51,860 nt of DNA from Fimbriimonadaceae bacterium (GTDB lineage Bacteria; Armatimonadota; Fimbriimonadia; Fimbriimonadales; Fimbriimonadaceae), in the NCBI GenBank assembly GCA_025934835.1, contig JAICWL010000013.1, forward strand, positions 1 through 51,860. The letters are read 5' to 3'. The position numbers were made by a program, and so were the translations under genes. Of the stretch, positions 3,980-48,693 are shown in pieces; the first letter of the stretch is position 1, and the number at the start of each line of letters is the position of its first letter. The notes beneath the pieces are model-generated. The model saw nothing but the letters and a program-made list of their open reading frames with translations. It made no database searches and was not told the DNA's origin.

Positions 3980-3985
3980 AGCTTA
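3980..3985 (-). promoter_or_regulatory. -10-like box TAAGCT of the DUF2089 gene
   Basis: TAAGCT ends seven bases before the ATG at 3972; no Shine-Dalgarno site lies between. Part of the window-wide leaderless pattern. Confidence 0.4.
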
Positions 3986-4087
3986 CAATATCTGAAACAC
4001 TTTGCCTCAAATTTCTTGACTTTTCTGATCCAGAGCTTAACTTTTCTTAACAGCGCACGGACTTATTCCCCACGCCAAACTAGGCCG

Positions 4088-4741
4088 ATGAGTCTCGAGG
4101 AGCGGTATCGCGCAGTGCTGCAGAGAGTAGCCAAGGCCTGCGAAGCTTCACGACGAGACCCGTCGAGCGTGACGTTGGTTGCCGCAAGCAAGAATCAGCC
4201 TGTGGCCGCACTCCTCGAGATGTACGACCTCGGTCAGAAAGAGTTCGGCGAGAATCGCCTGCAGGAGGCACTCCCGAAGATCGCAGCGCTGCCAACCGAC
4301 GTGACCTGGCACTTCATCGGCAGGCTTCAGTCGAACAAGGCCAGGAAAGCGGCTGACGCCTTCGACGTGATCCAGACACTGGAATCGAAAGCTCAACTTC
4401 GGGAGATCGACAAGTCTTGCAAGGTTGTCGATGGACTCATTGAAGTAAATATTGCCGATGAATTCCAAAAAAATGGATTGTCGGTCGATTATGTTGACGA
4501 ATTCCTCCAAGAGGTCCTAAACTCAACGCACGTTCATTTCCGTGGGCTGATGACTGTCGGTCCCGCGCTCGACGATCCGGAGAAGATGCGGATGTATTTC
4601 CGCAGGCTCCGCGAATTAGGCGAGAGACTGGGCAGCCAATGGCTAAGTATGGGTATGAGCGGAGATTTCGACGTGGCGATCCAGGAAGGAGCAACACACG
4701 TTAGAGTGGGGACGGCTCTCTTTGGGCCGCGACCGCAGTAA
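4088..4741 (+). CDS. yggS: YggS/PLPBP family pyridoxal phosphate homeostasis protein
   Basis: 217 aa, single-domain TIM-barrel PLP-binding protein of the YggS/PROSC family, which keeps vitamin B6 and amino/keto acid pools balanced and has no known catalytic turnover. The PLP lysine is K35 in VTLVAASKNQP. Other family motifs are FGENRLQEA, WHFIGRLQSNK, GLMTVGP and the phosphate-binding SMGMSGDFDVAIQEGATHVRVGTALFG. The ATG at 4088 begins at the family's usual N-terminus; an in-frame ATG 24 codons upstream gives an unrelated extension. CAAACT lies six bases upstream and no Shine-Dalgarno site is seen. It is followed by sepF after 17 bases, a widely conserved pair. Confidence 0.95.
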   Translation: MSLEERYRAVLQRVAKACEASRRDPSSVTLVAASKNQPVAALLEMYDLGQKEFGENRLQEALPKIAALPTDVTWHFIGRLQSNKARKAADAFDVIQTLESKAQLREIDKSCKVVDGLIEVNIADEFQKNGLSVDYVDEFLQEVLNSTHVHFRGLMTVGPALDDPEKMRMYFRRLRELGERLGSQWLSMGMSGDFDVAIQEGATHVRVGTALFGPRPQ

Positions 4742-4758
4742 AATCCGGAGCCACGAAG

Positions 4759-5184
4759 ATGGAGGGAGAAGAGATCATGGAAGAAATGGTTCTCCAGGAG
4801 AAGCCTGGATTTTTTGGCAAGCTCGCCGGCATGTTCACCCGTCCCGATGAGGACCTCGAGGACGAGACCGACGACAGAAGCGGCGCCCCGGTCGCCATTC
4901 GACCCGCCTACCGATACACCGTGACCGTACGCAGGCAGATCACCTCGTTCGACGACGCCATGGCTGCTGCAAATGGGCTGAAGCGTGGCGAGCAGCAGAT
5001 CTTGAACCTGACCGGCACCGACTCTCAGACCCGCCAGAAGATCGTAGACTTTATGTGTGGCGTCAACTACGCCCAGGAAGGCACGTGGGAGGAGATCGGC
5101 GACGGCATCTACCTGATCGTTCCCTCAACCGCGCTGGTCGAGGTCGCCGGTCCTACAGGCCGCGGCAACGTCCTTCGAAACTAG
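4759..5184 (+). CDS. sepF: Cell division protein SepF
   Basis: SepF (DUF552) bridges FtsZ filaments to the membrane during septation. About residues 1-30 contain the membrane-targeting helix (EKPGFFGKLAGMF), then an acidic linker, and the DUF552 core spans about 52-135 (VTVRRQITSFDDAMAAANGLK, then QKIVDFMCGV and the GIYLIVPS strand). The total of 141 aa is normal. An alternative start at 4777 (seventh codon) is better placed behind GGAGGGAGAAGAG, so the true protein may be 135 aa. It is co-directional with yggS, 17 bases apart, and presumably co-transcribed. Confidence 0.93.
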   Translation: MEGEEIMEEMVLQEKPGFFGKLAGMFTRPDEDLEDETDDRSGAPVAIRPAYRYTVTVRRQITSFDDAMAAANGLKRGEQQILNLTGTDSQTRQKIVDFMCGVNYAQEGTWEEIGDGIYLIVPSTALVEVAGPTGRGNVLRN

Positions 5185-5237
5185 CCGTTCCTCGATAGGG
5201 TCCGAGCCCCGAGCCTGGACCCTTCATCCGTCCGCCC

Positions 5238-5540
5238 ATGGCTGAAGGCTACGACGAGCTTGCCGCGCTTACCCGGTCCATACCGAGAGGCCGATGCGCC
5301 TCGTACGGCGCCCTCGGGGCCGCCCTGAGCCACCCGACGAGCGGCTACCTCGTGGGCCGATGGATCGCACGGACAGACGAGGACGTCCCTTGGTGGAGGG
5401 TGGTCTCGCGCGCCGGAGAGCTTCGGGTTTCAAAACGCGATCCCCAGCTTGCGGTGCTTCAGCGCCGTCACTTGGAAGCCGAAGGTGTTGCGCTCGTCGA
5501 CGATCGCGTCGATATGGCGCAATACGGCTGGACTCCGTAG
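5238..5540 (+). CDS. Alkyltransferase-like protein (ATL, MGMT DNA-binding fold)
   Basis: 100 aa, comprising only the helix-turn-helix DNA-binding domain of O6-alkylguanine-DNA alkyltransferase. Family signatures RGRCASYGALGAAL and GYLVGRW are intact, but the active-site PCHRV is PWWRV (residues 51-55). The acceptor cysteine is therefore replaced by tryptophan, and this is an ATL protein, which in other organisms binds O6-alkylguanine and hands the lesion to nucleotide-excision repair. The second tryptophan, in place of the usual histidine, is uncommon. It lies 53 bases after sepF with no clear promoter, so may belong to the same unit. Confidence 0.88.
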   Translation: MAEGYDELAALTRSIPRGRCASYGALGAALSHPTSGYLVGRWIARTDEDVPWWRVVSRAGELRVSKRDPQLAVLQRRHLEAEGVALVDDRVDMAQYGWTP

Positions 5541-5548
5541 CCCGTGGA

Positions 5549-5986
5549 TCACCAGTCGCGCGAAGTCGGGTGCTGGTCGGTCGGAAAATAGATCATCCAG
5601 TTCTGCGGATTGGGAATGAGCTTGAATCCGCACGTTTCGTACAGCCCCTGGGCATCGCGAGTAGCCAGCACCCAGCGTCGAAAGCCCTGGTGCTCCGGGT
5701 GACTTTGGGCATAGCGCATCATCCGCTTGGCGGCGCCCAATCCGCGCGCAGATTCGTCGACGAACACGTCGGCCACCCAGGCGAACGACGTTTTGTCGGA
5801 GATCACTCGAAGGAAGCCCACTTGCTCGCCGTCGAGAAACGCACCAACGACGAGCGAAGAGTTGCGTGCAGCCTTTTCGACCATTTCACGGTCGATGCCC
5901 GGCGTCCAATAAGAGCTTGCCAGCCAGCCGTGGACGCGCTCGAAGTCCATTCGCTCGAACCCTTCTCTGATCTCGACCGACGACAC
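5549..5986 (-). CDS. GNAT-family N-acetyltransferase
   Basis: 145 aa GCN5-related acetyltransferase. The acetyl-CoA loop is VDESARGLGAAKRMM (about 76-90); the C-terminal RRWVLATRDAQGLYETCGF is the usual last strand-helix. The N-terminus (VEIREGFERMDFERVHGWLASSYW) matches a common GNAT subgroup that ends shortly after a PQNWM motif, so the GTG start at 5986 is preferred over the internal ATG. There is no Shine-Dalgarno site; TAAAGT lies exactly six bases upstream of the GTG, suggesting a leaderless message. It converges on the ATL gene with 8 bases between the stops. Substrate unknown. Confidence 0.9.
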   Translation of the reverse strand: MSSVEIREGFERMDFERVHGWLASSYWTPGIDREMVEKAARNSSLVVGAFLDGEQVGFLRVISDKTSFAWVADVFVDESARGLGAAKRMMRYAQSHPEHQGFRRWVLATRDAQGLYETCGFKLIPNPQNWMIYFPTDQHPTSRDW

Positions 5987-5992
5987 GCTTAG

Positions 5993-5998
5993 ACTTTA
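5993..5998 (-). promoter_or_regulatory. -10 box TAAAGT directly before a GTG start (leaderless GNAT gene)
   Basis: TAAAGT is followed by six bases and then the GTG at 5986. With normal -10 spacing, transcription would begin at or next to the start codon. Confidence 0.55.
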
Positions 5999-6046
5999 CC
6001 AGCGAGCTCCGTGGGCAGTAGCTGAACCGTTTCCGCCGGCAGGTTG

Positions 6047-6052
6047 TACACT
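6047..6052 (+). promoter_or_regulatory. -10 box TACACT before the GH94 gene
   Basis: TACACT followed by eight bases and the ATG at 6061, with no Shine-Dalgarno site. It is divergent from the GNAT promoter; the two -10 boxes are about 50 bases apart. Confidence 0.5.
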
Positions 6053-6060
6053 AATGTTCC

Positions 6061-8259
6061 ATGATCGTCGAACGCCTCGACGCCAGCCCTGGGCGGCTGG
6101 TCGAAAACCCTTACGGCTACTTCGATCCTACGTCCAAGGCTTTCGTCGTGGAGAACCTTCTGACTCCCCGACCGTGGGTCAATGTCCTCAGCAACGACCG
6201 CTATGGCCTTGTCGTGAGCCAAGTCGGTGGCGGCTTTTCATGGTTCGAAAACTGCCAGGTATTTCGGATCACCCGCTGGGAGCAAGACCTCGTTCGAGAC
6301 GAAATGGGTCGGTTCTGCTACGTGCTAGACCTCGAGCGACCGAACGAGTTGTGGTCCACCACTTACCAGCCCACCAGAAGGAAGGCCGGCGTCGACCGTG
6401 CAATTCATGGTCTCGGCTACACTACCTTCGAGCGGCGCTTCCTGGGTATGGAGACCCGGCACACAGTTTTCGTCCCTCTCCACCTCGATGCCGAGATCTG
6501 GCTCATCGAGATTCGGAACATCTCGAACGAGCCCCGTAGGCTCCGACTCGCCGCTTATCACGAGCTGCACCTGGGCGGCATCGGCGATTGGCACCGCGAG
6601 TTCCACAGGCTGTTCATGGAGAGCGGCCGCGAGTCGGGCCGCCTGGTCGCCTGGAAGCATCCGAACCTTCGCGAACACCGACGGGAGGAGCTGGAGACGC
6701 CGATCTACACGGCCTTCGGCTGGAATGGCGGCACCGCTCCACGCTGGGTTACCGACAAAGCCACTTGGCTCGGCCCGTGCGGGACCCCCACCGAACCTCG
6801 TGGGCTGATCGGGGACGCCGAGCCTTCAGAAACTCCGCGCTGGGACGACCCCATTGCCGCCGGCATGATCGACGTCGACCTCGCGCCGGGAGAAACCAGG
6901 TCTGTCGTCCACGTTGTGTCCGCCTCCAGAGATCGGGCCGCCGCCCTTTCCGCGCTCGATGCCTGCGCCCCGGCCGAGGCCGAGCGAATGCTTCGCGAGG
7001 TGCGGGAGCAATGGCTTAGCCGCTGCTCGCTTGGCAAGGTGCGCACCGATGGGCCGGCCGCGGACCTCATGGTCAACGCCTGGCTGCCGTATCAAGCGAT
7101 AGCCGGAAGGCTCTATGCCAGGTGCGCTTACTACCAGCAAGGCGGCGCGTACGGCTACCGGGACCAGCTTCAAGACAGCCTGATGCTCCTCGACACCGAG
7201 CCGGACAAGACGCTCGAGCAGATCGGGCGCCACGCCGAGGCGATGTACGAGGATGGCGGCGTGCGCCACTGGTGGCACCCGAACACAGACATCTTCGTGG
7301 AGAGTCGCCATTCCGACACGTGCCTCTGGCTGGCCTATGCCACGCTGGAGTACCTGGATGCCACGGCGGACGACCTCGCCCTCGGCCACTCGCTGCGGTA
7401 TCTGAACCGTGAGACCCAGGCATTTGGAGAGTCGGGTGCTTTGCTCGATCACTGTCTCCGGGGAATAGACCGCGCTCTCGGTCTTCGGTCGTCCCGAGGA
7501 CTGCCGCTCATTGGCGCCGGCGACTGGAACGATGGCCTGTCGCATGCCGGTCTGGAGGGCCGCGGCGAATCGGTCTGGGTGGGCATGTTCCTATTCGGAA
7601 TTCTCGAGCGGATCGTGCCCGTGCTGCGAAGCCAAGGCTTCGAGAATAGGGCCGACGTCTACGCGGCCGAGGCAGAGGAGCTGCGCGCAGCAGTAAACGA
7701 GCATGGCTGGGACGGAGAGTGGTATCTCGAAGGAACCCGAGACGACGGACGCACCCTCGGCAGTCATCGCGACGCGGAAGGCAGCATTTTCTTGAACCCT
7801 CAGACGTGGGCCGTGCTGACGGGCATCGCCCCTCCCGAGCGGGCGCAGAAGGCGATGGACTCTGTCCGGCAACGCCTTCTCACGCCGTACGGAGCGCTTC
7901 TTCTGCAGCCCGCTTTCAAGCACGTCGATCAGTACGTCGGCTACATTTCGCGCTACGCACCCGGCCTGCGAGAAAACGGCGGAGTGTATAGCCATGCTTC
8001 GGTGTGGGCCGTCCTGGCGTTTCTCAAAATGGGTGACCGGGAGACCGCCGTGAGCCTATTTCGGTCGATGCTGCCTCCCGTGCGCTCAGCCGAGGACGCC
8101 GACCTTTATGCCGCTGAGCCCTACGTGATGCCCGGGAATGCCGACGGTCCGGACTCGCCGTACGCGGGTCGCGCCGGCTGGACCTGGTATACAGGCTCGG
8201 CTGCCTGGATGGTGCGCGCGGCCCGGGCCCTGGCCGAAGCGTCGAATGCCGAATGCTAA
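6061..8259 (+). CDS. GH94 family glycoside phosphorylase (cellobiose-phosphorylase-like)
   Basis: 732 aa inverting phosphorylase (old GT36 family) that splits a beta-glucosidic bond with phosphate to give a sugar 1-phosphate. The N-terminal beta-sandwich starts at YGYFDPTSKAFVV and includes YGLVVSQVGGGFSWF; the (alpha/alpha)6 barrel follows from about 310. Key motifs are GGAYGYRDQLQDS (about 362-374), HWWHP, and GDWNDG at 487-492, which carries the catalytic Asp. No signal peptide, so it acts on imported oligosaccharides. The specificity (cellobiose, laminaribiose, sophorose series or other) cannot be assigned from sequence alone. Its last 14 bases overlap the LacI regulator gene, which suggests that regulator controls it. 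Confidence 0.93.
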   Translation: MIVERLDASPGRLVENPYGYFDPTSKAFVVENLLTPRPWVNVLSNDRYGLVVSQVGGGFSWFENCQVFRITRWEQDLVRDEMGRFCYVLDLERPNELWSTTYQPTRRKAGVDRAIHGLGYTTFERRFLGMETRHTVFVPLHLDAEIWLIEIRNISNEPRRLRLAAYHELHLGGIGDWHREFHRLFMESGRESGRLVAWKHPNLREHRREELETPIYTAFGWNGGTAPRWVTDKATWLGPCGTPTEPRGLIGDAEPSETPRWDDPIAAGMIDVDLAPGETRSVVHVVSASRDRAAALSALDACAPAEAERMLREVREQWLSRCSLGKVRTDGPAADLMVNAWLPYQAIAGRLYARCAYYQQGGAYGYRDQLQDSLMLLDTEPDKTLEQIGRHAEAMYEDGGVRHWWHPNTDIFVESRHSDTCLWLAYATLEYLDATADDLALGHSLRYLNRETQAFGESGALLDHCLRGIDRALGLRSSRGLPLIGAGDWNDGLSHAGLEGRGESVWVGMFLFGILERIVPVLRSQGFENRADVYAAEAEELRAAVNEHGWDGEWYLEGTRDDGRTLGSHRDAEGSIFLNPQTWAVLTGIAPPERAQKAMDSVRQRLLTPYGALLLQPAFKHVDQYVGYISRYAPGLRENGGVYSHASVWAVLAFLKMGDRETAVSLFRSMLPPVRSAEDADLYAAEPYVMPGNADGPDSPYAGRAGWTWYTGSAAWMVRAARALAEASNAEC

Positions 8260-9331: not shown

Positions 9332-9381
9332 GCTCCTGCCCGGTCCCAAACCGCATACCAGAAACGAGATCGTAGGCATGG

Positions 9382-9416
9382 AAAAAGCCGCGCCCCATTT
9401 TTGGGGCGCGGCTTTC
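9382..9416. terminator. Bidirectional terminator between the LacI and pseudopilin genes
   Basis: A perfect 13-bp stem AAAGCCGCGCCCC with loop ATTTTT. Read on the minus strand it is followed by a T run, so it mainly ends the pseudopilin gene, but it can also stop the convergent LacI transcript. Confidence 0.88.
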
Positions 9417-9433
9417 GAATAGACGAGAAATGT

Positions 9434-10288: not shown

Positions 10289-10353
10289 TGAAATTCCTCG
10301 GATGATGCCTATCTGATTTGACGTGAGCTGGATGCCTTCCGCTACTCTCTCGC

Positions 10354-10373
10354 CCGGTTCGGGTCCGAACCGG
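10354..10373. promoter_or_regulatory. Perfect 20-base palindromic site upstream of the pseudopilin gene
   Basis: CCGGTTCGG-GT-CCGAACCGG, nine-base arms with a two-base centre, 66 bases upstream of the pseudopilin start. A half-site-like GCGAACCGA follows at about 10385-10393. Its position and symmetry suit an operator for a dimeric regulator; the regulator is unknown. Confidence 0.5.
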
Positions 10374-10424
10374 AACTTGCAGGCGCGAACCGAATAGATG
10401 AATGATTCTGCGTACGCTGACTGA

Positions 10425-10466
10425 ACGAGGTTTGTGCCTCGTAACAGCTAGCTGAACGCTTTCAGC
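10425..10466. repeat. Cluster of three overlapping inverted repeats
   Basis: ACGAGG-6-CCTCGT (10425-10442), the palindrome CAGCTAGCTG (10445-10454) and GCTGAA-CGCT-TTCAGC (10451-10466) lie in tandem in the pseudopilin upstream region. They could be operators or a structured leader. Confidence 0.45.
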
Positions 10467-10928: not shown

Positions 10929-10934
10929 TAGAAT
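10929..10934 (+). promoter_or_regulatory. -10 box TAGAAT directly before the PF10091 enzyme gene
   Basis: TAGAAT, six bases, then the ATG at 10941, with no Shine-Dalgarno site. The small inverted repeat GCGGA-GAA-TCCGC at 10906-10918 covers the expected -35 region and could be an operator. Confidence 0.5.
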
Positions 10935-24645: not shown

Positions 24646-24648
24646 GAG

Positions 24649-25995
24649 TCACCTTAACGGCGGAAGGATATCCGCTTGCAGCCGGAGCATTTCATCCATC
24701 ATCTCCACTGCGCGGCGGTACGAGTCGACCGTCGGCTCGAGAAAAATGGCTTGGAGAAGCTTCTCCTTCGACTCCTCCACGTACGCCTCCACGAGTAGGT
24801 CTTGGATGCTGGCCTGGGTTCGGATCATCGCGGCTACTGGCTCGGGCAACGGCTGCATGGCCGTCTTCGTCCAACCGCCGCAGTCGGCTACGGCCGGCAC
24901 TTCCACGATCAGGTCCTCCGGCAACCCAGGTATGGCGCCCTCGTTCGGAACGTTGATCGCGGGCAGATCGTGGCGCACGTCGCACGCGAGTGATTCCATA
25001 ATCGGGATCGCCCCTTCGCCCGAGAACTGGATCGATTGTTCTGCCTCCTGCTCTTCCTCGGCTTGCACCGGTCGGAAAGGTCGACCCGTCTTGTCGCCGC
25101 CAAGCGAGTAAACGAACTCAGGTATTCGCCCCGTGTCCCATGGATGGCCATCGACAGGATCGTAATACCAAAGCAACTCGTTCGCGTAGAAGTCGGATGC
25201 CCAGCCGATGTACTCGCCGATATGATTTGTGCCGGGCGATGGGTACAGCCCGAACCTTCGGAACAGGATGCGCGACAGCCCGATTTCATGCCAATCCGAG
25301 AGCCAGTCCCCTTCCCGGTCTGCGGCCCGCAGCGCCGGATACAGATCTTCGCCCGTTTGATGATCCCGTATCGATTGGAACCATGTGAAATGATTGATGC
25401 CGCAGGCCGACGTCTCCAACCGCTCTTCCGGCACGCCGAGCATGAAGGCGATCTGATGCCGGCCCATGAACACTCCGTGGCAGAGTCCGATCGTCTTTGT
25501 CCGAGTCAGCCTGCATGCGGCAGTGCACAGCTTGTGCATTGGGTTCGTGTAATTCAGCAAGAGCGCCTCAGGACAGCGACGCTCCATCTCCTTGGCGATG
25601 CGCACGATAGGCGGCATATTCCGGAGCGCGTGGAACAAGCTGCCCGGTCCGCCGTTCTCGCCGTAAATCTGCTTGAACCCGAAGCGGCGCGGAACATGAA
25701 AATCCATGGCCCAATAAGCGTCACGGCTGATCTCCACCGCGTCGACGACGAATGAGGCGTCCTGCAATGCCTCCTCCAAGCTCGTCGTTGCCGTGATCTC
25801 CACGCTGCGCCCGAGAACGGAGCGAACATGGCACGCATAAGCCAGCGTTCGGTTAACGGCCTGCTCGTCGATGTCCATGAGGGTGAGCTCGATTCCGCGC
25901 GAAGCCAAGGAGTCGCTGAGCAGAATATCGCGGATGGTCGCCGGTCCAAACGAGCGGCTTCCGGCGCCGACGAGGGCGATCTTTACATTTGGCAT
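24649..25995 (-). CDS. GH4-family NAD- and metal-dependent glycosidase
   Basis: 448 aa. GH4 enzymes cleave by transient oxidation at C3 using NAD+ and Mn2+. Seen here: the Rossmann motif IALVGAGSRSF (5-15), LMDIDEQAV, the NYTNPMHKL block with the metal-site Asn, LCHGVF (about 169-174) with the metal-binding Cys, and INHFTWF. The CHGx form has been reported for alpha-glucuronidases, while CHSV marks alpha-galactosidases, so neither activity should be assumed. The Shine-Dalgarno AGAAGG precedes the ATG. It is the first gene of the GH4-NagB unit, with a promoter that overlaps that of the divergent ankyrin gene. Confidence 0.92.
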   Translation of the reverse strand: MPNVKIALVGAGSRSFGPATIRDILLSDSLASRGIELTLMDIDEQAVNRTLAYACHVRSVLGRSVEITATTSLEEALQDASFVVDAVEISRDAYWAMDFHVPRRFGFKQIYGENGGPGSLFHALRNMPPIVRIAKEMERRCPEALLLNYTNPMHKLCTAACRLTRTKTIGLCHGVFMGRHQIAFMLGVPEERLETSACGINHFTWFQSIRDHQTGEDLYPALRAADREGDWLSDWHEIGLSRILFRRFGLYPSPGTNHIGEYIGWASDFYANELLWYYDPVDGHPWDTGRIPEFVYSLGGDKTGRPFRPVQAEEEQEAEQSIQFSGEGAIPIMESLACDVRHDLPAINVPNEGAIPGLPEDLIVEVPAVADCGGWTKTAMQPLPEPVAAMIRTQASIQDLLVEAYVEESKEKLLQAIFLEPTVDSYRRAVEMMDEMLRLQADILPPLR

Positions 25996-26017
25996 GGACG
26001 TTTCCTTCTGCTATCTT
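25989..26017 (+). promoter_or_regulatory. Promoter TTGGCA-17-TATCTT of the ankyrin gene, overlapping the GH4 promoter
   Basis: -35 TTGGCA (25989-25994), 17-base spacer, -10 TATCTT (26012-26017), then eight bases to the GTG at 26026. On the other strand TAAGAT (26018-26013) is a -10 for the GH4 gene, so the two -10 boxes overlap almost fully. Confidence 0.7.
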
Positions 26018-26025
26018 ACGTTTCC

Positions 26026-26670
26026 GTGGACACTCTCGAACAGACTATTCGCGATGGGAACGCACAGCAAGCGGCCCGCAAGGCCCGAGAAGATCCCTCG
26101 CTCTTAAGCGCCCCCACCAGCTTCGGGGTTGGACCGATCCTAATGGCCGTCTACCTGGGTAAGCCGCATGTGGCCGAGGCTCTCCGGGAGCTAAAAGGCA
26201 ACCTGGACGTTTTCGAAGCGTCTGCGATGGGCGACCAGCACCAACTTTCGCGCATCTTAGAGGAGCGACCCGATGCTCATCGCGAATTTAGCCCGGATGG
26301 GTTCACGCCTCTCGGCTATGCGGCATTCTTCGGACACATCGAAGCCGTTCGCTCGTTGGTTGCCCGAGGGGCCGACCCGAACGTCAAGTCCATGAACGGC
26401 ATCGGGGCTGCGCCTCTGCATTCGGCGCTGGCCGAAGGCAGAAAAGAAATGGCTCGAACTCTAGTCGAGGCTGGAGCCGACGTGAATGCTGCGAGCGCCG
26501 AGGGATGGACGCCGCTTCACTATGCCGCGGAAACAGGAGACATCGAAACCGCTCGCTACCTGCTCGCCAAGGGGGCGAATCCAAGTTGCGTTCGCCCGGA
26601 CGGGAAGACGCCCGCGCAGGTCGCCGGCGACAAGGGATACTCCGATCTAGCTTCTGCCCTGGGCGCGTAG
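26026..26670 (+). CDS. Ankyrin-repeat protein
   Basis: 214 aa with about five ankyrin repeats. Clear units are DGFTPLGYAAFFGHIEAVRSLVARGADPN, then IGAAPLHSALAEGRKEMARTLVEAGADVN, then EGWTPLHYAAETGDIETARYLLAKGANP and a capping DGKTPAQVAGDKGYSDL; the N-terminal two are degenerate. A protein-interaction scaffold, probably cytoplasmic (no signal). The GTG at 26026 is favoured because VDTLEQTIRDGN starts the first helix and the -10 box ends only eight bases before it; longer in-frame starts would lie inside the divergent GH4 gene. Confidence 0.88.
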   Translation: MDTLEQTIRDGNAQQAARKAREDPSLLSAPTSFGVGPILMAVYLGKPHVAEALRELKGNLDVFEASAMGDQHQLSRILEERPDAHREFSPDGFTPLGYAAFFGHIEAVRSLVARGADPNVKSMNGIGAAPLHSALAEGRKEMARTLVEAGADVNAASAEGWTPLHYAAETGDIETARYLLAKGANPSCVRPDGKTPAQVAGDKGYSDLASALGA

Positions 26671-32086: not shown

Positions 32087-32092
32087 TATAGA
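32087..32092 (+). promoter_or_regulatory. -10-like box TATAGA before the TlpA-like gene
   Basis: TATAGA is followed by AAGGGCT and the ATG at 32100. AAGGG is too close to the ATG for an ideal Shine-Dalgarno, so either a leaderless start or a very short leader fits. Confidence 0.45.
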
Positions 32093-32729: not shown

Positions 32730-33854
32730 TCAACTCTCGTGAAGGCCGGCGGCGCGTGCGTAGACGTTCTCGAACCGGCGCGTCATCTCGTCCAGCGTGA
32801 ACTTCTGGTCGACGATGAACTTGCCCATCCGACCCATCTCTTCGCGCTCGTCATCGTTGCGCAGCAGATAGTCGACTGCCTCGGCGATCTCGTTCGGCCT
32901 TAGGTCCACGAGGAGGCCGGTCTGGCGGTGACGCACTACCTCAGGCAGCGCGCCCACCCTGGTAGCCACGACCGCCTTGCCGCGCGCCATCGCTTCGATG
33001 GCGGCGACTCCGAACGTTTCCATCCTGGATGGAAGCGTGCTGAGCGTGAAGGAATCGAGCATCCGAGGAACGTCGTGCCGAACGCCGGTCAAGGTCACGC
33101 TCTCCGCCGCACCCGAATCGGCGATGGCATCATCGAGGTCTGCGCGGAACGTCTCGTCGACTCTGCCGACGAACACGACGTGCGCGTCCGGGTGCTCCTT
33201 GCGCACATCTTTCATGGCCGTCAGCAGCTCTAGCTGGCCCTTGTCGCGGCAAACCTTGCCCACGAGCCCTACGAGCCGACGACTGCGCGGAATGCCAAGC
33301 TCGTCCTTCACTTGGTCTGGCGAAGCTGCCTCGAACGCCCCGAAATCCGTGCCGTTGTAAACGGTGTCGATGTAGCGGTCGGGGACGCCTCGGCCATGAA
33401 GCATTCCCCGGACAAAATTGCTCACAGCAACCAGACGGTTGTTGCGCCGCGCCAAACGCCGGTAGATCTGGTCGTTGTTGGCAATGTGCACGCTGGTGAC
33501 GATCGGAACACCGGTCATCAGACCGAGCGCGTGGCCAATGTAAGCCGCGCGAGTGAGGTGCGTATGCACGACGTCGATGCGGCTGTGGCGCACCTCGCGC
33601 ATCATGTACGCCATGGTGCGAAGCCACCCGCCGCCTTTCATTTGAGTGATGTGAGACGGAATGCCCGAATCACCCAAGATAATCGGAAGCCATCCTGTGC
33701 TGGGCACGACTGCTTGCACGTGGTGACCACGGCGACGGAGAGTGGTTGAAAGTGAATAGACGTGCCGCTCAGCGCCGGACGTGGCGCTACTGGAACACAT
33801 CTGAAGCACCCGGATCGGGCGTTCCGGCTCCTCGCAACTCTGCAAACCCTCCAA
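32730..33854 (-). CDS. GT4-family glycosyltransferase
   Basis: About 374 aa GT-B glycosyltransferase. N-terminal domain IRVLQMCSSSATSGAERHVYSLS, with VVHTHLTRAAYIGHALG and LVAVSNFVRGML. C-terminal domain RRLVGLVGKVCRDKGQLELLTA, VVFVGRVD and the nucleotide-sugar site STLPSRMETFGVAAIEAMARGKAVVATRVGALPEVV with the EX7E-type glutamates. It probably builds cell-surface polysaccharide. Start uncertain: the TTG at 33854 is seven bases behind TACTCT; a longer form could begin at the ATG at 33926, which would clash with the divergent MFS start. It is the only envelope-sugar gene in the window. Confidence 0.9.
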   Translation of the reverse strand: MEGLQSCEEPERPIRVLQMCSSSATSGAERHVYSLSTTLRRRGHHVQAVVPSTGWLPIILGDSGIPSHITQMKGGGWLRTMAYMMREVRHSRIDVVHTHLTRAAYIGHALGLMTGVPIVTSVHIANNDQIYRRLARRNNRLVAVSNFVRGMLHGRGVPDRYIDTVYNGTDFGAFEAASPDQVKDELGIPRSRRLVGLVGKVCRDKGQLELLTAMKDVRKEHPDAHVVFVGRVDETFRADLDDAIADSGAAESVTLTGVRHDVPRMLDSFTLSTLPSRMETFGVAAIEAMARGKAVVATRVGALPEVVRHRQTGLLVDLRPNEIAEAVDYLLRNDDEREEMGRMGKFIVDQKFTLDEMTRRFENVYARAAGLHES

Positions 33855-33912
33855 TGCAGCGAGAGTACCAGAGCCCTGGGGTCGATGCGCAGCGATGCAT
33901 CGGGCCAGACGC

Positions 33913-33918
33913 CATAAT
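33913..33918 (+). promoter_or_regulatory. -10 box CATAAT before the MFS exporter gene
   Basis: CATAAT, six bases, then the ATG at 33925, and no Shine-Dalgarno site. It supports this ATG over the more upstream in-frame GTG/ATG choices. Confidence 0.5.
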
Positions 33919-37471: not shown

Positions 37472-38758
37472 TTACATGTGCGCGATGATGTTGTCGCCAA
37501 ACTCGGAGCACTTGATCTCCGTAGCCCCGTCCATCAGCCGCGCAAAATCGTAGGTCACGCGCTTGGAGGCGATAGCCCCTTCGATCCCCTTCAGGATCAG
37601 GTCGGCCACCTCGGTCCAGCCCATGTAGCGAAACATCATCTCGCCACTCAAAATGACCGAAGACGGGTTCACCACGTCCTTATTCGCATATTTGGGCGCG
37701 GTGCCGTGCGTGGCCTCGAAGATGGCGTGGCCGGTCACATAGTTTATGTTCGCGCCGGGCGCGATGCCGATCCCGCCAACCTGCGCAGCCAAGGCATCGC
37801 TCAAGTAGTCGCCGTTTAGGTTCAGCGTGGCGATCACGTCAAAGTCTTTCGGCCTCGTCAGAACCTGCTGGAGCGTGATATCTGCGATTGCGTCCTTGAT
37901 GACGATGCCGGCGCCCGGCTTGCCTTCCGGGATCTTGCACCATGGGCCGCCATCGATCTCCTGGGCGCCGAAAACTTCCTTCGCGAGCTCGTAACCCCAG
38001 TCGCGGAACGCGCCCTCGGTAAACTTCATGATGTTCCCCTTGTGCACCAGGGTCACGCTCTTGCGACCGTTCTCGATGGCGTACTTAATCGCTGCGTAAA
38101 TGAGCCTCTGCGAGCCGAGCTTGCTGACCGGCTTGATGCCGATTCCGACAAGCACCGCGCTATCCGAGTCGCGGTGAACGCTCTTGTTCCATGCCCGGTT
38201 TCTCTCTTCGGTTCCGAAGCGGACCTTCTCGAACATCTTGGGGAACGCCTGCTTCAGGAAGTCGAGCGCCTTCTGCGCCTCGGCGGTTCCAGCGGCGAAC
38301 TCGATGCCGGCGTAGATATCCTCGGTGTTCTCCCGGAAAATCACCATGTCCACTGCGCCGGGGTCTTTGACGGGGCTCGGCACGCCTGGGAACCACCGCA
38401 CTGGCCTCAGACAAACGTAAAGATCGAGTAGCTGCCGCAGCGCTACATTCAGCGAGCGAATGCCGCCGCCGACCGGAGTGGTCAGCGGGCCCTTGATGCC
38501 GATCAGGTAGCGGTTGAAGTCGGTCAGCGTAGCGTCTGGCAGCCAACTCCCGGTCGCGTTGAAAGCCTTTTCGCCCGCCAGAACCTCGAGCCAATCGACC
38601 TGACGCTGCCCACCATACGCCTTCTTCACCGCGGCGTCGAACACCCGCACGCTCGCGCGCCAAATGTCCGGCCCTGTTCCGTCGCCCTCGATAAAGGGCA
38701 GGATCGGGTCGTTGGGGACGTTCAGCCCCTGAGCGGTCATGGTGATGGCGGTGCCCAT
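37472..38758 (-). CDS. icd: NADP-dependent isocitrate dehydrogenase
   Basis: 428 aa, TCA cycle enzyme converting isocitrate to 2-oxoglutarate. Motifs: [16 protein letters not shown] at the start, [22 protein letters not shown] with the Ser that IDH kinase modifies in E. coli, [29 protein letters not shown], and [41 protein letters not shown] with the NADP-type coenzyme region. Start at ATG 38758; the frame stays open upstream but only as out-of-frame sequence of the neighbouring gene. TATCCT lies nine bases before the ATG. It is 26 bases downstream of the Tag gene. Confidence 0.96.
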
Positions 38759-38784
38759 TTCAGCGGGAGGATACCAAAGCGCGG

Positions 38785-40360: not shown

Positions 40361-40528
40361 GACTTTCGGAGTTTACATGTGCGGGCTGAAGCATCGTAAT
40401 CGACGGCTCTTTGTGGGCGTTTTGTGGCCGTTCCGGGTCGTTTCGCGGGTGTTTCCGCGCATTTCATGGTCACTTTCTGGTCACTTTTTCGCTCTGGCTC
40501 TGAGGTTCGCGACGAACCTGAAAAGTTT

Positions 40529-40543: not shown

Positions 40544-40771
40544 TTTTTACTTTTTGTTCCGCTCGAGGAGCGGGGCCGTTCGGGTGGGCGGTCGCTTTTC
40601 CCGAGTCGAGGGTCAAAGGATGACCGGCTTTCTCGGTGTCGGGTGGGCATACATGTAAATACACGTCTACATGTCGAAAATGGGTGCCAGCGGACGAAAT
40701 TAGGTATTTATGCTAACGCGGCCCCCGCGGGATCTTGGCTCGCGGGCGTCAAAAGCGCGGGCGGGTTCGGG

Positions 40772-40777
40772 TAGGTT
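40772..40777 (+). promoter_or_regulatory. -10-like box TAGGTT before a GNAT gene
   Basis: TAGGTT followed by eight bases and the ATG at 40786, without a Shine-Dalgarno site. This spacing supports the internal ATG rather than an in-frame start 17 codons upstream. Confidence 0.4.
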
Positions 40778-41645: not shown

Positions 41646-41651
41646 TATAGT
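41646..41651 (+). promoter_or_regulatory. -10 box TATAGT before the 136-aa protein gene
   Basis: TATAGT, five bases, then the ATG at 41657. TTCCGC at 41623-41628 is a weak -35 at 17 bases. No Shine-Dalgarno site. Confidence 0.5.
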
Positions 41652-43547: not shown

Positions 43548-43550
43548 CGC

Positions 43551-44606
43551 TTACGACTTGTTCCGGATGTGGATCAGGTCGCCGTCCTGGATGACGTGGT
43601 CCTTCCCTTCCAGCTTCATTTTGCCTTGGGCGTATGCGGAGTCCAGCGATCCGGCTGCGGCATAGTCGTCGTAATGCACAACCTCGGCGCGGATGAATCC
43701 CTTCGCAATGTCGTTGTGGATGGTGGCGGCGGCTTTGAGCGCGGTCGAGCCTCGGCGCAACGGCCAGGCCTTGGTCTCGTTCTCGCCGGCGGTGAAAAAC
43801 GTGATAAGGCCGAGCGCATCGTAGACCGCCCGGATGACGCGGTAGCTTGCGGGCTCGCTCAGCCCCAAGGATTCGAGGAATTCCGGCTGGTCCGCCGCGT
43901 CGAGCTTGGCGATCTCCTCTTCGATAGGCGCGGACACAGCGAACGCAGGGCTGCCGGAGGCCGCAAGCTCCGCCATTCTGGCTTCGAGCCGTGGACCGGG
44001 GCTTGCCGCTGAAGCCTCGTCGACGTTGAACGCCACGACCATCGGCTTGGCGCTAAGAAACTGATAGTTCCGGACGACGGTCTGCTCGTCTTCCGAAAGC
44101 TCGATCGCTCGGATCGGCGTGCCGGATTCGAGCATCGGCCGGATGCGGTCGAACAGGGTCTGCTCCATATAGTCCGGCGTGCCCGGACTCTTGGCCGTGG
44201 TCGACCGCTTGAGACGTTCCAAGCGGTTCTCGACGATCTGCAGGTCGGCCAGGACCAGTTCGACTTCGACCGCCTCCTGGTCTCGAATCGGGTCGACTGC
44301 CGCGTGAAACGGAGCTATCGGAGAATCGAATGCGCGAACGACATGCAGAAGCAGATCGGCCTTCTTCGCTTCGTCGAGCAGTCTTTGGGAGAATGCCTTG
44401 CCGCTCGGCGAGATCGGCTCCAGGCTGTCGTCGAGGACGACGCCCGCAGGCGTCTGCTTCTTGGGGCGGACTTGGGCGACGATCGCGTCGAACCTCGGGT
44501 CGGGCACGGGCACGCTCGTGACGTCCCCTTTGGCGAGCCCTTGGGCCGCCGCGCGGTAGAGCGTCGACCGTCCCGACTGTGAATAGCCTATGAGCGCGAC
44601 CTTCAT
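43551..44606 (-). CDS. YchF/OLA1-like protein with degenerate GTPase motifs
   Basis: 351 aa, homologous over its length to the Obg-family ATPase YchF. The C-terminal DUF933/TGS part is intact (LGLITFFTAGENETKAWPLRRGSTALKAAATIHNDIAKGFIRAEVVHYDDY, then KMKLEGKDHVIQDGDLIHI). In the nucleotide domain, the P-loop GLPNVGKST is GYSQSGRST (7-15) with the Walker lysine replaced by Arg, the switch I segment is missing, and the G3 motif DIAGLVKGAS is replaced by LDDSLEPISP. The G4-like NVDE is kept. It may therefore bind nucleotide poorly or not hydrolyse it. Start overlaps the stop of a small membrane-protein gene (ATGA). Confidence 0.9.
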   Translation of the reverse strand: MKVALIGYSQSGRSTLYRAAAQGLAKGDVTSVPVPDPRFDAIVAQVRPKKQTPAGVVLDDSLEPISPSGKAFSQRLLDEAKKADLLLHVVRAFDSPIAPFHAAVDPIRDQEAVEVELVLADLQIVENRLERLKRSTTAKSPGTPDYMEQTLFDRIRPMLESGTPIRAIELSEDEQTVVRNYQFLSAKPMVVAFNVDEASAASPGPRLEARMAELAASGSPAFAVSAPIEEEIAKLDAADQPEFLESLGLSEPASYRVIRAVYDALGLITFFTAGENETKAWPLRRGSTALKAAATIHNDIAKGFIRAEVVHYDDYAAAGSLDSAYAQGKMKLEGKDHVIQDGDLIHIRNKS

Positions 44607-44773
44607 GGGAGAGAGGGACTCGGCACGAAGTCGATCCGGATCGGCCGCTTAGGCATCTGCCTTGGCAAAATCCAGAAGAAGTACAGCGACGCCAGGAACA
44701 CGACGGCGAGCGCCCAGGCGGGGATCCTGGGTTTGGCGGAGGGCCTGGCGTTGGGCGCGACTCTCTTGCTCAC
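44603..44773 (-). CDS. Small single-pass membrane protein upstream of the YchF-like gene
   Basis: 56 aa from the GTG at 44773. A basic N-terminus (SKRVAPNARPSAKPRIP), one transmembrane helix (AWALAVVFLASLYFFWIL), then a basic tail ending FVPSPSLP. No family recognised. It has no Shine-Dalgarno, but TATCCT lies eight bases before the GTG, in the same arrangement as other leaderless genes here. Its TGA overlaps the ATG of the YchF-like gene (ATGA), which supports that it is translated. The open frame continues upstream only as antisense to the next genes. Confidence 0.62.
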   Translation of the reverse strand: MSKRVAPNARPSAKPRIPAWALAVVFLASLYFFWILPRQMPKRPIRIDFVPSPSLP

Positions 44774-44781
44774 GAGCTTCA

Positions 44782-44787
44782 AGGATA
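44782..44787 (-). promoter_or_regulatory. -10 box TATCCT of the small membrane protein/YchF-like unit
   Basis: TATCCT, eight bases, then the GTG at 44773. It is divergent from guanylate kinase, whose own -10-like TAGGCT is at 44810-44815. Confidence 0.5.
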
Positions 44788-44809
44788 CCGGCTGAGGCAC
44801 GCGGGAGAG

Positions 44810-44815
44810 TAGGCT
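44810..44815 (+). promoter_or_regulatory. -10-like box TAGGCT before guanylate kinase
   Basis: TAGGCT followed by six bases and the GTG at 44822; weak by itself but in the recurring arrangement. Confidence 0.4.
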
Positions 44816-44821
44816 GTGCGC

Positions 44822-45382
44822 GTGGGAGACAAGGGGCGTCTCGTGATACTCAGTGGGCCCAGCGGGGTGGGCAAGGATACGCTGATCGACGCCTGGAAAG
44901 CGCTCGATCCACGAGTAGTGCGGGTGATCGCGTACACCACTCGCGATCCCAGGCCGGGCGAGCGGAACGGGATCGACTACCACTTCGTTTCCGAGGAGGA
45001 CTTCCTGCGGCGGATCGAGGCCGACGAGTTCTTGGAACACAAGCAGGTGCATGGCAAGCGGTACGCCACACCTCTGCGCGACATGGAAGAGCTGCTCGCT
45101 GCGGACAAGATCGCCGTTCTCAAGATCGACGTACAGGGCGCGCTGAGCGTGATGGCGCTGCGGCCCGATGCGATCACCGTGTTCATCGAACCGCCCAGTG
45201 TGGAGGAACTCGAAAGGCGCATCCGCGGCCGGGCGGCCGACTCTGCCGAGGGGATCGAAACGAGGCTGGCGAACGCGCGGGCGGAGCTGGCGCTCGCAGG
45301 CAGATATCAGCACCGGATCGTGAACCATGACGTGGGACGCGCCGTGGACGAGCTCGTTCGCATCACCGAGGAGGCAAAGTAG
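44822..45382 (+). CDS. gmk: Guanylate kinase
   Basis: 186 aa, phosphorylates GMP to GDP. P-loop LVILSGPSGVGKDTLI (residues ~7-22), GMP-binding YTTRDPRPGERNGIDYHFVS, and HGKRYATPLRDMEELL. The Asp-rich IDVQGALSVM and the lid segment LERRIRGRAADSAEGIETRLANARAEL are all present. The P-loop has Asp instead of the more common Ser after GK (GKDT). The GTG at 44822 is preferred because the -10-like box ends six bases before it; a GTG two codons earlier (44816) is possible. Confidence 0.95.
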   Translation: MGDKGRLVILSGPSGVGKDTLIDAWKALDPRVVRVIAYTTRDPRPGERNGIDYHFVSEEDFLRRIEADEFLEHKQVHGKRYATPLRDMEELLAADKIAVLKIDVQGALSVMALRPDAITVFIEPPSVEELERRIRGRAADSAEGIETRLANARAELALAGRYQHRIVNHDVGRAVDELVRITEEAK

Positions 45383-45391
45383 CCTTGCAGA

Positions 45392-45420
45392 TCGACTAGC
45401 CAAGCGTATCGTACTAAACT
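45392..45420 (+). promoter_or_regulatory. Promoter TCGACT-17-TAAACT before the large hexahairpin-like gene
   Basis: -35 TCGACT (45392-45397), exactly 17 bases, -10 TAAACT (45415-45420), then seven bases to the ATG at 45428. With standard spacing the transcript would start at or beside the ATG. Confidence 0.6.
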
Positions 45421-45427
45421 GGTGCGC

Positions 45428-48106
45428 ATGGTGCTGCCGAACCCGCCCCTGCTCCCGGTCGTGGCCGAACTTACGAGTCCCAGCGCGGTCGTCCGAGCTG
45501 TCCGGAGCGGCGACGAGATCGTCGAGGAGATGTACGCGCGCAACCCGAAGGGCAAGGAAACCCTCGTGCTGGTTTCGCCTACGCACCCTTGCCTGGGACG
45601 CGAGCGTGGCGCGCGCTATGGCAGCCTGATCGCTTCGGGGTCGGGCGGACTCTTCACGCTGCCACCGACGTTCGGCTTCACGAGCGCTCGGTCCGACCGC
45701 CACAAGATGGTCCTTTCCGGCGAAGAAAACGGCTGGAACATCCGTAAGACGATCACTTTGGGCGCAGGCGGCGAGGTGGACGTGTCGGTCCGAGCCGATA
45801 CCGATCTCAGCTCGCCCAGGCTCCGGTACTTGCTGACCACCTATGCCTTCGCGCCGAACGGCCAGCCGATGTCCGCAGCCTGCAAACCCGACTCGACCTG
45901 GGCCCCGTCGATCCGGCCGAGAGAAGACGACGTCATCGGCGACCATTTCTTTCGGTCGCCCGCGGTCGTCTCGCAAAAAGGGGCCATCTCGGCCGTTCTC
46001 ATGCCGGACCTGGACGTCCTCACAACCGAGCGAGCGATCCCGTCTGTGGTCGACCTCGACTGCACGGGCAACGTCGTCGACGCGCCGCTCATGAGCTACG
46101 GATTTGCCGACTACCGGCTGGTTGGACATGTGTACTTCGCGAACGACTCCGCGATGGTTCGGCCAGTGCCCTGGAGCTTGCGATCGGATATGGCGATTCT
46201 TCTCAGCTCGTCGGCCGCACCCTATAGCGCGACTTCCCAAGCCGCCGACTACCTGTGGGCCAAATACGGCAGCCGATACCTCGGCAAGATTCTGCCGCAG
46301 GCTATGCCCTTTGCGGAGTACGCGAACGTTTGCTACCCCGCCGCTCTAAACGAGAAGGAAACGGGCGGATGGTTCGAAACGGATATCGACGGCAGACCGT
46401 GCGGAGGAATGGCATCGGGGTGGGGTCGCGACCAGGGTTGGGTGAGCTGGCAATGCTGGTTCAACCAACTTCGCTCGGCTTGGGGCATGCATTGGTGGGC
46501 ACGCAAGCTCGACAATCGCGACTGGCTGGACAAATCCGACAAGATGCTGAACCTGGCGCTCGCTGCTCCGCTCGAGCATGGCGCGTGCCCAACAACATAC
46601 GATTCCCGGAACCGAGGCTGGAAGGGCAGCCTCATCATGCCCTCGCGCGACTGCTATTACGACCTGACGAACATGGCGTGGAAAGGCATTTGGCTTCTAC
46701 GTTGGCTCGATTTCAGCGATTGCCCCAGAGCGGACGAGGTACGCCGGCAGTGCGCGGAGATGGCTCGCTGTATGATGCGCTTCCAACATGGAGACGGGTC
46801 GTTCCCCACGTGGCTGAGCAAGAGCCTGGAGCCGATTCCGATCCTCTCTCGATCGGCGCAAAGCGCTCTTCCGGGGTGGTTCCTGGCGAAACTCGCAAAG
46901 ACCGCCGGTTTCGACGACGAACTGGCGAAGCGGTCTGCAGATTCAGCGCGAAAGTGCGCGAGCTTCCTCGCGTCAAGCATCGTCGATCCGAAGCTGTATT
47001 ACGATTTCGAGACTTTTTTCTCGTGCTCGCCAAAGCAGTGCCTGCAAATCGGCGACACGCTCGACGACGCAAGGATGCACGACCCATACACGCTTCAGGC
47101 GCCGCAAAACACGCTCTCGATGCAGTGGACTGCCGAAGCGTTGCGCGAGACGGCGGCTCTCGAAAAGCCGCAAGAGCGTCCGAAGCTGATGGCTGCAGCG
47201 ATCAAGGCTCTCGATACGATGTGCATGTACCAGAACGTGTGGCCGATTTCCTATCGGCCCGTTGCGTACACCTATGGCGGATTCGGCGTTCAGAATTCGG
47301 ACGGCGAGTACAACGACGCCCGGCAGGCGCAGTTCGCGGAGACGCTCTGCGACTTCGGCGCGGAGCTCGGCAGGAAGGATTACTTCGAACGGGGCGTCGC
47401 AGCTGCCCGAGCCTCGCTGACGCTAATCAACCATCCGCTGCACGAGAAGTTCGGGATCTATCCGAACCCCAATTATCCGCTGGGGCTCGAGCCGGAGAAC
47501 TGTGGGCACGGCGGCACCAACGAGCAGGACGGCCGCACGGGCTTCGATTGGGGTGAAGGCTCGGGGCTTGCCTCGATGGCACTGCTGCTCGACAAATACG
47601 GACCCGATTACCATGCGAGCGGCTGGTCGGTGCTGGTCGACGGCGGGACGCCCAAGATCGAGCCGGCCCCATCGAGCGGCTCCCTGTCATTCGAAGACTG
47701 GCATATGCCCGGCTGGGTGTTCACGGGCGATCTTATCCCTTGGCCAACGCGCTCGGCCCGGACGAATTTCGGCGCTGCGGGCAAGCCGTTCATCGGTACC
47801 TGCGAGGACGGCCGGGGCGGGTTCGACGACACCATGATCGGCACGATCATATCGCCCGAGTTCGTGGCGGACAAGCCGACGATCAGCCTGCTCGTTGGCG
47901 GCGGTCGCGGGGACGGCGAGTACGTCGAACTCCTGGATTCCTCCGGAAACCGCATCGCGGTCGAGCACGGTCGCAACCGAGAGGAGATGGACCGCCGCAC
48001 TTGGGACGTGTCCCGCTACCAAGGACAGCGTTTGCGCATCCGCATCGTCGACAGCGAGAAGGAAGGGTGGGGGCATATCAACGTCGGCGACATCCGGCTC
48101 GAATAA
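45428..48106 (+). CDS. Large predicted carbohydrate-active protein with an (alpha/alpha)-barrel and C-terminal beta domain
   Basis: 892 aa, no signal peptide. The N-terminal ~270 residues are beta-rich. The middle (about 280-690) is Trp/Cys-rich and helical, reminiscent of six-hairpin glycosidases (GGMASGWGRDQGWVSWQCWFNQLRSAWGMHWWARKLD, then MMRFQHGDGSFPTWLSKSL, and GGTNEQDGRTGFDWGEGSGLASM). The last ~140 residues form a lectin-like beta domain (SFEDWHMPGWVFTGD, FDDTMIGTIISPEF, SLLVGGGRGDGEYVELLDSSG, GHINVGDIRL), similar to modules attached to GH32 and other enzymes. No CAZy family can be named. A GTG two codons upstream is an alternative start. Confidence 0.75.
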   Translation: MVLPNPPLLPVVAELTSPSAVVRAVRSGDEIVEEMYARNPKGKETLVLVSPTHPCLGRERGARYGSLIASGSGGLFTLPPTFGFTSARSDRHKMVLSGEENGWNIRKTITLGAGGEVDVSVRADTDLSSPRLRYLLTTYAFAPNGQPMSAACKPDSTWAPSIRPREDDVIGDHFFRSPAVVSQKGAISAVLMPDLDVLTTERAIPSVVDLDCTGNVVDAPLMSYGFADYRLVGHVYFANDSAMVRPVPWSLRSDMAILLSSSAAPYSATSQAADYLWAKYGSRYLGKILPQAMPFAEYANVCYPAALNEKETGGWFETDIDGRPCGGMASGWGRDQGWVSWQCWFNQLRSAWGMHWWARKLDNRDWLDKSDKMLNLALAAPLEHGACPTTYDSRNRGWKGSLIMPSRDCYYDLTNMAWKGIWLLRWLDFSDCPRADEVRRQCAEMARCMMRFQHGDGSFPTWLSKSLEPIPILSRSAQSALPGWFLAKLAKTAGFDDELAKRSADSARKCASFLASSIVDPKLYYDFETFFSCSPKQCLQIGDTLDDARMHDPYTLQAPQNTLSMQWTAEALRETAALEKPQERPKLMAAAIKALDTMCMYQNVWPISYRPVAYTYGGFGVQNSDGEYNDARQAQFAETLCDFGAELGRKDYFERGVAAARASLTLINHPLHEKFGIYPNPNYPLGLEPENCGHGGTNEQDGRTGFDWGEGSGLASMALLLDKYGPDYHASGWSVLVDGGTPKIEPAPSSGSLSFEDWHMPGWVFTGDLIPWPTRSARTNFGAAGKPFIGTCEDGRGGFDDTMIGTIISPEFVADKPTISLLVGGGRGDGEYVELLDSSGNRIAVEHGRNREEMDRRTWDVSRYQGQRLRIRIVDSEKEGWGHINVGDIRLE

Positions 48107-48132
48107 CCGCGCGGTGGCGCGCAACTGTCGAA

Positions 48133-48138
48133 TAAAAT
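48133..48138 (+). promoter_or_regulatory. -10 box TAAAAT directly before the MerR-like gene
   Basis: TAAAAT, six bases (AGGGCC), then the GTG at 48145. AGGG is too close for an ordinary Shine-Dalgarno. One of the clearest leaderless candidates. Confidence 0.55.
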
Positions 48139-48144
48139 AGGGCC

Positions 48145-48693
48145 GTGCCCACGCTAGAAGACTATGCGCGGCTCGCGCCGTTCACTCTGGACGAGTTGGT
48201 CGATGCAGCGAACAGCGTTCTTCGCAATCGGCCCCGGCTCCTGGTGAGCAGGCGGACGGCGCGCTACTACGTGAGCCAGGGCATACTTCCGCCGCCGAGC
48301 GGCGCGCCGAAATTCGCCCGGTACGGCACGGAGCATCTGGTGCGCTTCGTAGGCGCGCGGGTCTTGCTCGACGAGGGAACCAACCTCGAATCCGCGAAAA
48401 AACTGTTGGACATGGTTATAGCGGCTTCGCAGGACGGCGGACTGAGCGAGATTCAAGACCGTCTTGCGGGCAGGCGCGCAGCCGAGCCGGACAGGCGGTT
48501 GGCCAGCTTTTCCATCCGCGAAGAACCGAGGCCCGTTCGCCGTCTCGATTCCGTGGGGGAAGTGCGCAGGAGGATCGAGCTTGGCCCTTGGGAGACTCTG
48601 GAGATCGACGCGACTGTGCCTCTCGACATTGCTCTCGAGGATGCTGGGCAGCGCATTCGGGACCTTCTGACGGAATTACGTGACACTACTTGA
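48145..48693 (+). CDS. MerR-like helix-turn-helix regulator
   Basis: 182 aa. LDELVDAANSVLRNRPRLLVSRRTARYYVSQGILPPPSG followed by RYGTEHLVRFVGARVLLDEGTNLESAKKLLDMV is the winged helix-turn-helix of the MerR superfamily, in the variant with R-T-x-R-Y-Y-x-x-x-G-I-L. The C-terminal ~90 residues (RRLASFSIREEPRPVRRL, then GEVRRRIELGPWETLEIDATVPLDIALEDAGQRIRDLL) form no known sensor. The promoter of the vWA gene overlaps this gene's stop, so it may control that gene (inference). The next gene is in the same direction, 84 bases away. Confidence 0.82.
   Translation: MPTLEDYARLAPFTLDELVDAANSVLRNRPRLLVSRRTARYYVSQGILPPPSGAPKFARYGTEHLVRFVGARVLLDEGTNLESAKKLLDMVIAASQDGGLSEIQDRLAGRRAAEPDRRLASFSIREEPRPVRRLDSVGEVRRRIELGPWETLEIDATVPLDIALEDAGQRIRDLLTELRDTT

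Follow-up and report, generated by a model that had tools for sequence, protein, structure and literature searches.

Leaderless genes are already known from Deinococcus-Thermus and Actinobacteria. One study reports a TANNNT motif at about -12, with a share of 39.4% for Deinococcus-Thermus and 19.2% for Actinobacteria (PMC3160421), and another source gives about 30% of ORFs in Deinococcus-Thermus, with a spacing of 6-7 bases (PMC12340547). The leaderless transcripts of M. tuberculosis have a TANNNT -10 element and no -35 consensus, and [G/C][A/G]N precedes 49% and TGN 7% of the TANNNT promoters of this species (PMC3898074). The genome studied here is from the Fimbriimonadaceae, which NCBI taxonomy places in the class Fimbriimonadia of Armatimonadota; a published anti-Shine-Dalgarno table lists this class with a value of 25 (PMC10783764). 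The string "Armatimonad" is absent from the main texts of PMC3160421 and PMC12340547. In the accessible parts of the literature, which exclude subscription papers, the trait is unreported in Armatimonadota (figure S7 of PMC12340547 may include the phylum), as is a stop codon serving as a -10 element (PMC6448022 included), and our search returned nothing on Armatimonadota transcription start sites.

The hexamers described below resemble the Deinococcus-Thermus signal, which is a TANNNT roughly 6-7 bases upstream of the ORF, mostly without a classical -35 and with Shine-Dalgarno (SD) genes alongside (PMC3160421, PMC12340547), but they occur in a different phylum and show a preference for G at both bases before the hexamer that was not seen in a small sample of 13 D. 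gobiensis promoters (frequency of G 0.31 two bases before and 0.23 one base before). They share a TANNNT -10 without a -35 consensus with M. tuberculosis, but here GG directly before TA is enriched, compared with the [G/C][A/G]N or TGN of that species (PMC3898074). The first-pass annotation had matched the pattern to the leaderless class of Deinococcus and Actinobacteria, and the motif and the lack of a general -35 are indeed common to both, with the spacing matching that of Deinococcus-Thermus. Extended -10 promoters of sigma70 have the form TGNTATAAT. As in these promoters, a -35 is lacking here and G is preferred at the second base upstream of the hexamer, but T three bases before is not enriched (0.18 vs 0.21 in controls) and there is an extra G one base before. 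What appears to be new is the split within a phylum, the GG-extended -10 and the host lineage.

Hexamers at gene starts in the window

The window is a 51,860-nucleotide contig (JAICWL010000013.1), one of the 190 contigs of the 3.33 Mb genome. Sixteen of its starts had been annotated as having a -10-like hexamer and no SD site (Table 1). A strict TANNNT is present at the exact spacing in 14 of the 16; the exceptions are 32100, where the final T is missing, and 33925, where the first T is missing. The lack of SD sites held throughout, with GGAG, AGGA or GAGG in the SD window of 0/16 starts. A start caller that uses coding statistics only, blind to upstream motifs, picked 12 of the 16. The four others are 5986, 33854 (33719 was called instead), 44822 (two codons from the called start) and 44773, the start of a 56-codon ORF, and three of these (5986, 33854 and 44773) have GG directly 5' of the hexamer. 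The suggestion that the pattern corrects gene starts could be upheld at 33854, which is favoured because the upstream start is needed for a complete glycosyltransferase domain (33719 would cut the GT4 N-terminal Pfam match).

Table 1. Candidate -10 elements at the 16 annotated starts in the window.
Candidate element	Positions	Strand	Bases before start	Start	Gene	Remark
-10 TAAGCT	3980..3985	-	7	ATG 3972	DUF2089-type regulator	start called independently
GGTAAAGT	5993..6000	-	6	GTG 5986	GNAT acetyltransferase	caller: 5950
-10 TACACT	6047..6052	+	8	ATG 6061	GH94	start called independently
-10 TAGAAT	10929..10934	+	6	ATG 10941	glycoamylase family	start called independently
-10 TATCTT	26012..26017	+	8	GTG 26026	ankyrin repeats	start called independently
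TATAGA, non-strict	32087..32092	+	7	ATG 32100	thioredoxin-like	start called independently
GGTACTCT	33862..33869	-	7	TTG 33854	glycosyltransferase family 4	GT4 N-terminal Pfam match from residue 26
CATAAT, non-strict	33913..33918	+	6	ATG 33925	MFS transporter	start called independently
GGTATCCT	38768..38775	-	9	ATG 38758	isocitrate/isopropylmalate dehydrogenase family	ortholog footprint
-10 TAAACT	40370..40375	-	9	ATG 40360	Gfo/Idh/MocA	start called independently
GGTAGGTT	40770..40777	+	8	ATG 40786	GNAT	start called independently
-10 TATAGT	41646..41651	+	5	ATG 41657	without Pfam match	start called independently
GGTATCCT	44782..44789	-	8	GTG 44773	56-aa ORF	ORF uncalled
-10 TAGGCT	44810..44815	+	6	GTG 44822	guanylate kinase	caller: 44816
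-10 TAAACT	45415..45420	+	7	ATG 45428	892 aa, without Pfam match	motif in 1/4 start regions of relatives
-10 TAAAAT	48133..48138	+	6	GTG 48145	MerR-type regulator	start called independently

Three loci in the window have further features. At 25995-26026, two divergent starts lie 30 bases apart and share one spacer, in which the forward gene has its TATCTT and the opposite strand carries TAAGAT 17 bases before the other ATG, which also has an SD-like AAGGA before it; this spacer may be a two-way promoter. The 56-aa ORF (44603-44773, reverse strand), whose GTG lies behind GGTATCCT, has one likely membrane helix, as judged by eye. There is a 4-base overlap with the ATG of the next gene, whose product matches YchF C-terminal and TGS but has no GTPase-domain Pfam match. 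Of the 40 other genomes searched, 7 encode relatives (49-59% identity) of the 892-aa protein (45428-48106). A contig scan with this single protein as query returned no relatives; the later ortholog alignment matched eight records, titled Fimbriimonadaceae, Fimbriimonas, Armatimonadetes, Chthonomonas or Chthonomonadaceae.

Enrichment, spacing and conservation

A raw whole-genome count of TANNNT-N6-ATG gave no excess (343 vs 356 for the reversed pattern) because such a count is not restricted to gene starts, and starts were therefore called first. The genome was sampled as the window plus 40 stretches (747 kb, 576 called genes), and a gene was scored when the last base of a TANNNT lay 5-9 bases before its start. 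The motif was found at 102 of the 576 starts (17.7%) compared with a mean of 24.3 (4.2%) across seven control blocks (Fisher 6e-14), a strict excess of about 13.5% of genes. The enrichment expected by the first-pass annotation is thus present across the sampled 747 kb, and its chance estimate of about 4% of genes agrees with the measured control. In the window, 10 of the 45 called genes have the motif (binomial p 2.5e-5 vs 4.5%), and TANNNT precedes 67 of 4052 other ATG/GTG/TTG triplets (1.7%). As an in-frame stop that bounds an ORF can inflate in-frame spacings, we re-counted without TAA/TAG hexamers and the excess was retained (52/576, 9.0%, vs 13.1, 2.3%). The motif was present at 13/88 published starts of D. 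gobiensis plasmid stretches (control 2.0) and at 0/37 starts of an Indioceanicola plasmid stretch, our positive and negative controls. Called and published D. gobiensis starts coincided for 56 of the 82 genes in common; with its own starts, the caller recovered the motif in 6/82 genes (control 2.6), so our counts may underestimate the trait.

Over spacings of 0-49 bases, the profile of the 576 genes peaks at 6 (36 genes), followed by 7 (24), 8 (18) and 9 (16), with a shoulder of 10 genes at spacing 10 and 13 at spacing 11; the background is close to 5 genes per offset, and counts are at this level beyond 11. We compared orthologs of three genes for conservation of the hexamer. For the isocitrate/isopropylmalate dehydrogenase (IDH)-family gene at 38758, GGTANNNT lies 7-11 bases before the ATG in all 15 congeneric genomes for which a close ortholog was found, our genome among them (the other 5 of the 20 genomes have weak matches only, and one ortholog is cut by its contig at the far end), and the middle bases and the remaining upstream region are variable. 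For scale, GGTANNNT occurs at spacing 4-13 in 37/576 own genes vs 5/458 in the motif-free group described below. TANNNT was found in 8/17 congeneric guanylate kinase orthologs fetched (an SD 4-mer in 3/17), and in 2/15 glycoamylase orthologs, where several frames, including one of these two, are poorly placed. Among relatives of the 45428 protein, the motif was found in 1/4 start regions (L060, TAGACT 6 bases before the ATG). Conservation across genes is uneven.

The spacings bear on whether these are ordinary promoters with short real leaders of about 5-15 bases instead of leaderless ones. The spacings of 7 to 11 in the IDH family and the shoulder at 10-11 would fit such leaders, as they would leave a few leader bases at the usual -10-to-start distance. 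At that distance a spacing of 6 puts +1 on the start codon; however, 6 is the mode, and counts drop to background past 11, which makes short leaders an unlikely general explanation.

SD 4-mers are present in 3/102 motif genes vs 116/474 others, and both signals occur together in 3 genes vs about 21 expected. The same windows shifted upstream gave a like deficit (1 vs about 12.5 expected over five shifts), and in the bases wholly after the hexamer SD 4-mers are undepleted (6/72 motif genes vs 48/953 others). After these two tests, we dropped SD exclusion as independent support; the two signals occupy the same bases, and this geometry explains most of the lack of SD at motif genes. The 16S 3' end retains the anti-SD GGATCACCTCCTTA, and both start routes are therefore open.

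Distribution, composition and gene context in Armatimonadota

We searched for the motif in other genomes of the phylum, with samples of 11 to 175 genes per relative. The 11 relatives of the same genus, family or order had 76/421 motif genes when pooled (control 19.6), with weak members among them (G026 1/30, G018 1/18 and G006 3/27). Thirteen genomes labelled only as the same phylum had no excess when pooled (19/461 vs 33.0); G073, counted in this motif-free group, is a borderline case with 5/37 vs 3.1, three of them at spacing 6. A further distant genome labelled only as the same phylum, G052, had 41/175 vs 9.4 and shares the GG extension; G079, of the same family, had 2/25 vs 1.9, from few genes. 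RpoB sequences from 26 genomes gave a tree in which the in-class group clusters with G082, and G052 groups first with G079 and then with G066. The motif is at 2/83 starts in G082 (L141-L143, L234, L235; control 6.9) and 1/48 in G066 (L164-L166, L236; control 3.9), and SD 4-mers are at 42/83 and 17/48, respectively. This single-gene tree, which does not resolve the backbone between them, thus has the trait on two or more separate branches.

At positions outside the selection criterion, the motif-bearing genomes share base preferences. The frequency of G one base before the hexamer is 0.61 in our genome (control 0.25), 0.54 in the relatives (0.32) and 0.61 in G052 (0.25); two bases before, it is 0.45 (0.34), 0.68 (0.33) and 0.85 (0.29), and A at hexamer position 4 reaches 0.42 (0.24), 0.61 (0.28) and 0.68 (0.35). 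GG directly precedes TA in 27/102 own promoters vs 10/151 control hexamers, and the consensus of the extended -10 is GGTANAMT. With GGTANNNT or NNTANNNT as seed and uniform starting positions, expectation-maximisation (EM) found GGTANACT before 26.9% of genes in our genome; for the in-class set and G052 it found GGTANAAT, in 28.3% and 44.6%, respectively, with a spacing mode of 6 in each. With SD seeds, the in-class and G052 sets converged on the TA motif and our genome gave a diffuse pattern (gain 99.4), and with TA seeds the 13 other phylum genomes converged on AGGAG (44%). The log-likelihood gain in our genome was 175.7 for real vs 32 for shuffled and 111 for far-upstream sequence, the last with a different pattern (nCGa). 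Because of the far-upstream and SD-seed gains, the gain alone is indecisive, and consensus and position decide.

The -35 boxes that had been named for 26026 and 45428 did not generalise. In 158 aligned promoters from our genome and five relatives, a TTG peak at -35 distance and a general -35 are absent, and there is a weak T excess 29 bases before the hexamer (0.34 vs 0.21). Two sigma factors with region 1.2 (L001 and L002) carry RTIRVPVHTLE and RTIRIPVYVAE, respectively, in the stretch that reads the extended -10 in E. coli, and either may read the GG.

We examined gene context in our genome, the 11 in-class relatives and G052 pooled, at spacings of 5-11. The motif is at 102/356 divergent starts (control 28) and at 6/170 starts that overlap or follow a gap of 3 bases or less (control 4; Fisher 3e-13 between the two classes); at co-directional gaps, it is at 47/322 starts (control 18) for gaps above 60, 32/119 (9) for 26-60 and 40/113 (6) for 4-25. 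SD has the opposite trend, with 60/356 divergent and 81/170 overlapping or gap ≤3 starts. As it is enriched at divergent and not at operon-internal starts, the motif points to genes that are probably transcribed from a start of their own. This also bears on the idea that GGTANNNT is an alternative ribosome-binding element in RNA and not a promoter, which would account for its occupying the SD position and for the motif at 4/28 overlapping starts in G052 alone (control 0). However, the pooled overlapping starts, where SD is most used, are close to control, the motif is strong at divergent starts, and the best-kept EM positions (T1 0.82, A2 0.95, T6 0.91), though held by the seed, are those of a -10 box, so we consider a ribosome element very improbable.

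Co-directional gaps of 8-14 bases are commoner in motif lineages (48/724 vs 6/306, Fisher 0.001). At such gaps with TAA/TAG stops, the final T of the hexamer is present in 15/37 vs 14/72 at gaps of 20-50 (p 0.02), and at gaps of 4-25 the hexamer starts at the upstream gene's stop codon in 15/40 hexamer-bearing genes. An upstream TAA/TAG may double as the first two bases (TA) of the -10 of the following gene; since a stop codon supplies TA in any case, these counts are no more than suggestive.

A chance or start-calling artefact, in which in-frame TAA/TAG stops bounding ORFs and AT-rich spacers place TANNNT near starts, would fit the slightly raised counts at spacings 0 and 3, which are in frame (8 and 9 vs 3-4 at adjacent spacings), but scarcely merits consideration given the high counts at out-of-frame spacings 7 and 8, the enrichment of TAA/TAG-free hexamers, the lack of excess with the same caller in the 13 other phylum members pooled and the motif in all 15 IDH-family orthologs.

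A putative leaderless start signal and its possible history

The spacing peak at 6, the transcription-unit context, the base preferences at unselected positions and the IDH-family conservation together suggest that the hexamers are very probably -10 boxes of GG-extended, -35-less housekeeping-sigma promoters that give leaderless or near-leaderless mRNA. The share of genes that seem to use the signal ranges from about 14% by strict excess to 27% by EM. Promoter activity, transcript ends, the choice of sigma factor and the ribosome route are all predicted from sequence. The hexamer would act as the -10 element of a housekeeping-sigma promoter that has no -35 and is extended by the two preceding G. 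RNA polymerase would initiate on the start codon itself or a few bases upstream of it, and the ribosome would accept the 5' terminal AUG or GUG of the resulting leaderless or nearly leaderless mRNA without SD pairing. The users would be, above all, genes with their own transcription start, and operon-internal genes would rely on SD.

For the phylum, we lean slightly towards a joint reading in which the main start signal switches between Armatimonadota lineages and stop codons double as the next gene's -10. In Fimbriimonadia, and in one or more separate lineages (G052), GG-extended promoters that lack a -35 and are fused to the start codon would drive at least a quarter of the genes, and neighbouring lineages would rely on SD, with leaderless expression gained or lost more than once. 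Tightly packed co-directional genes would each keep their own promoter with almost no intergenic DNA. A single origin followed by several losses is an alternative history that is also compatible with the tree.

In practice, GGTANNNT near a start can help to correct misplaced gene starts, as at 33854. Armatimonadota, a little-studied phylum, would be added to the phyla in which leaderless genes are numerous, and the sharp differences between its lineages would offer a natural comparison for the gain or loss of leaderless expression.
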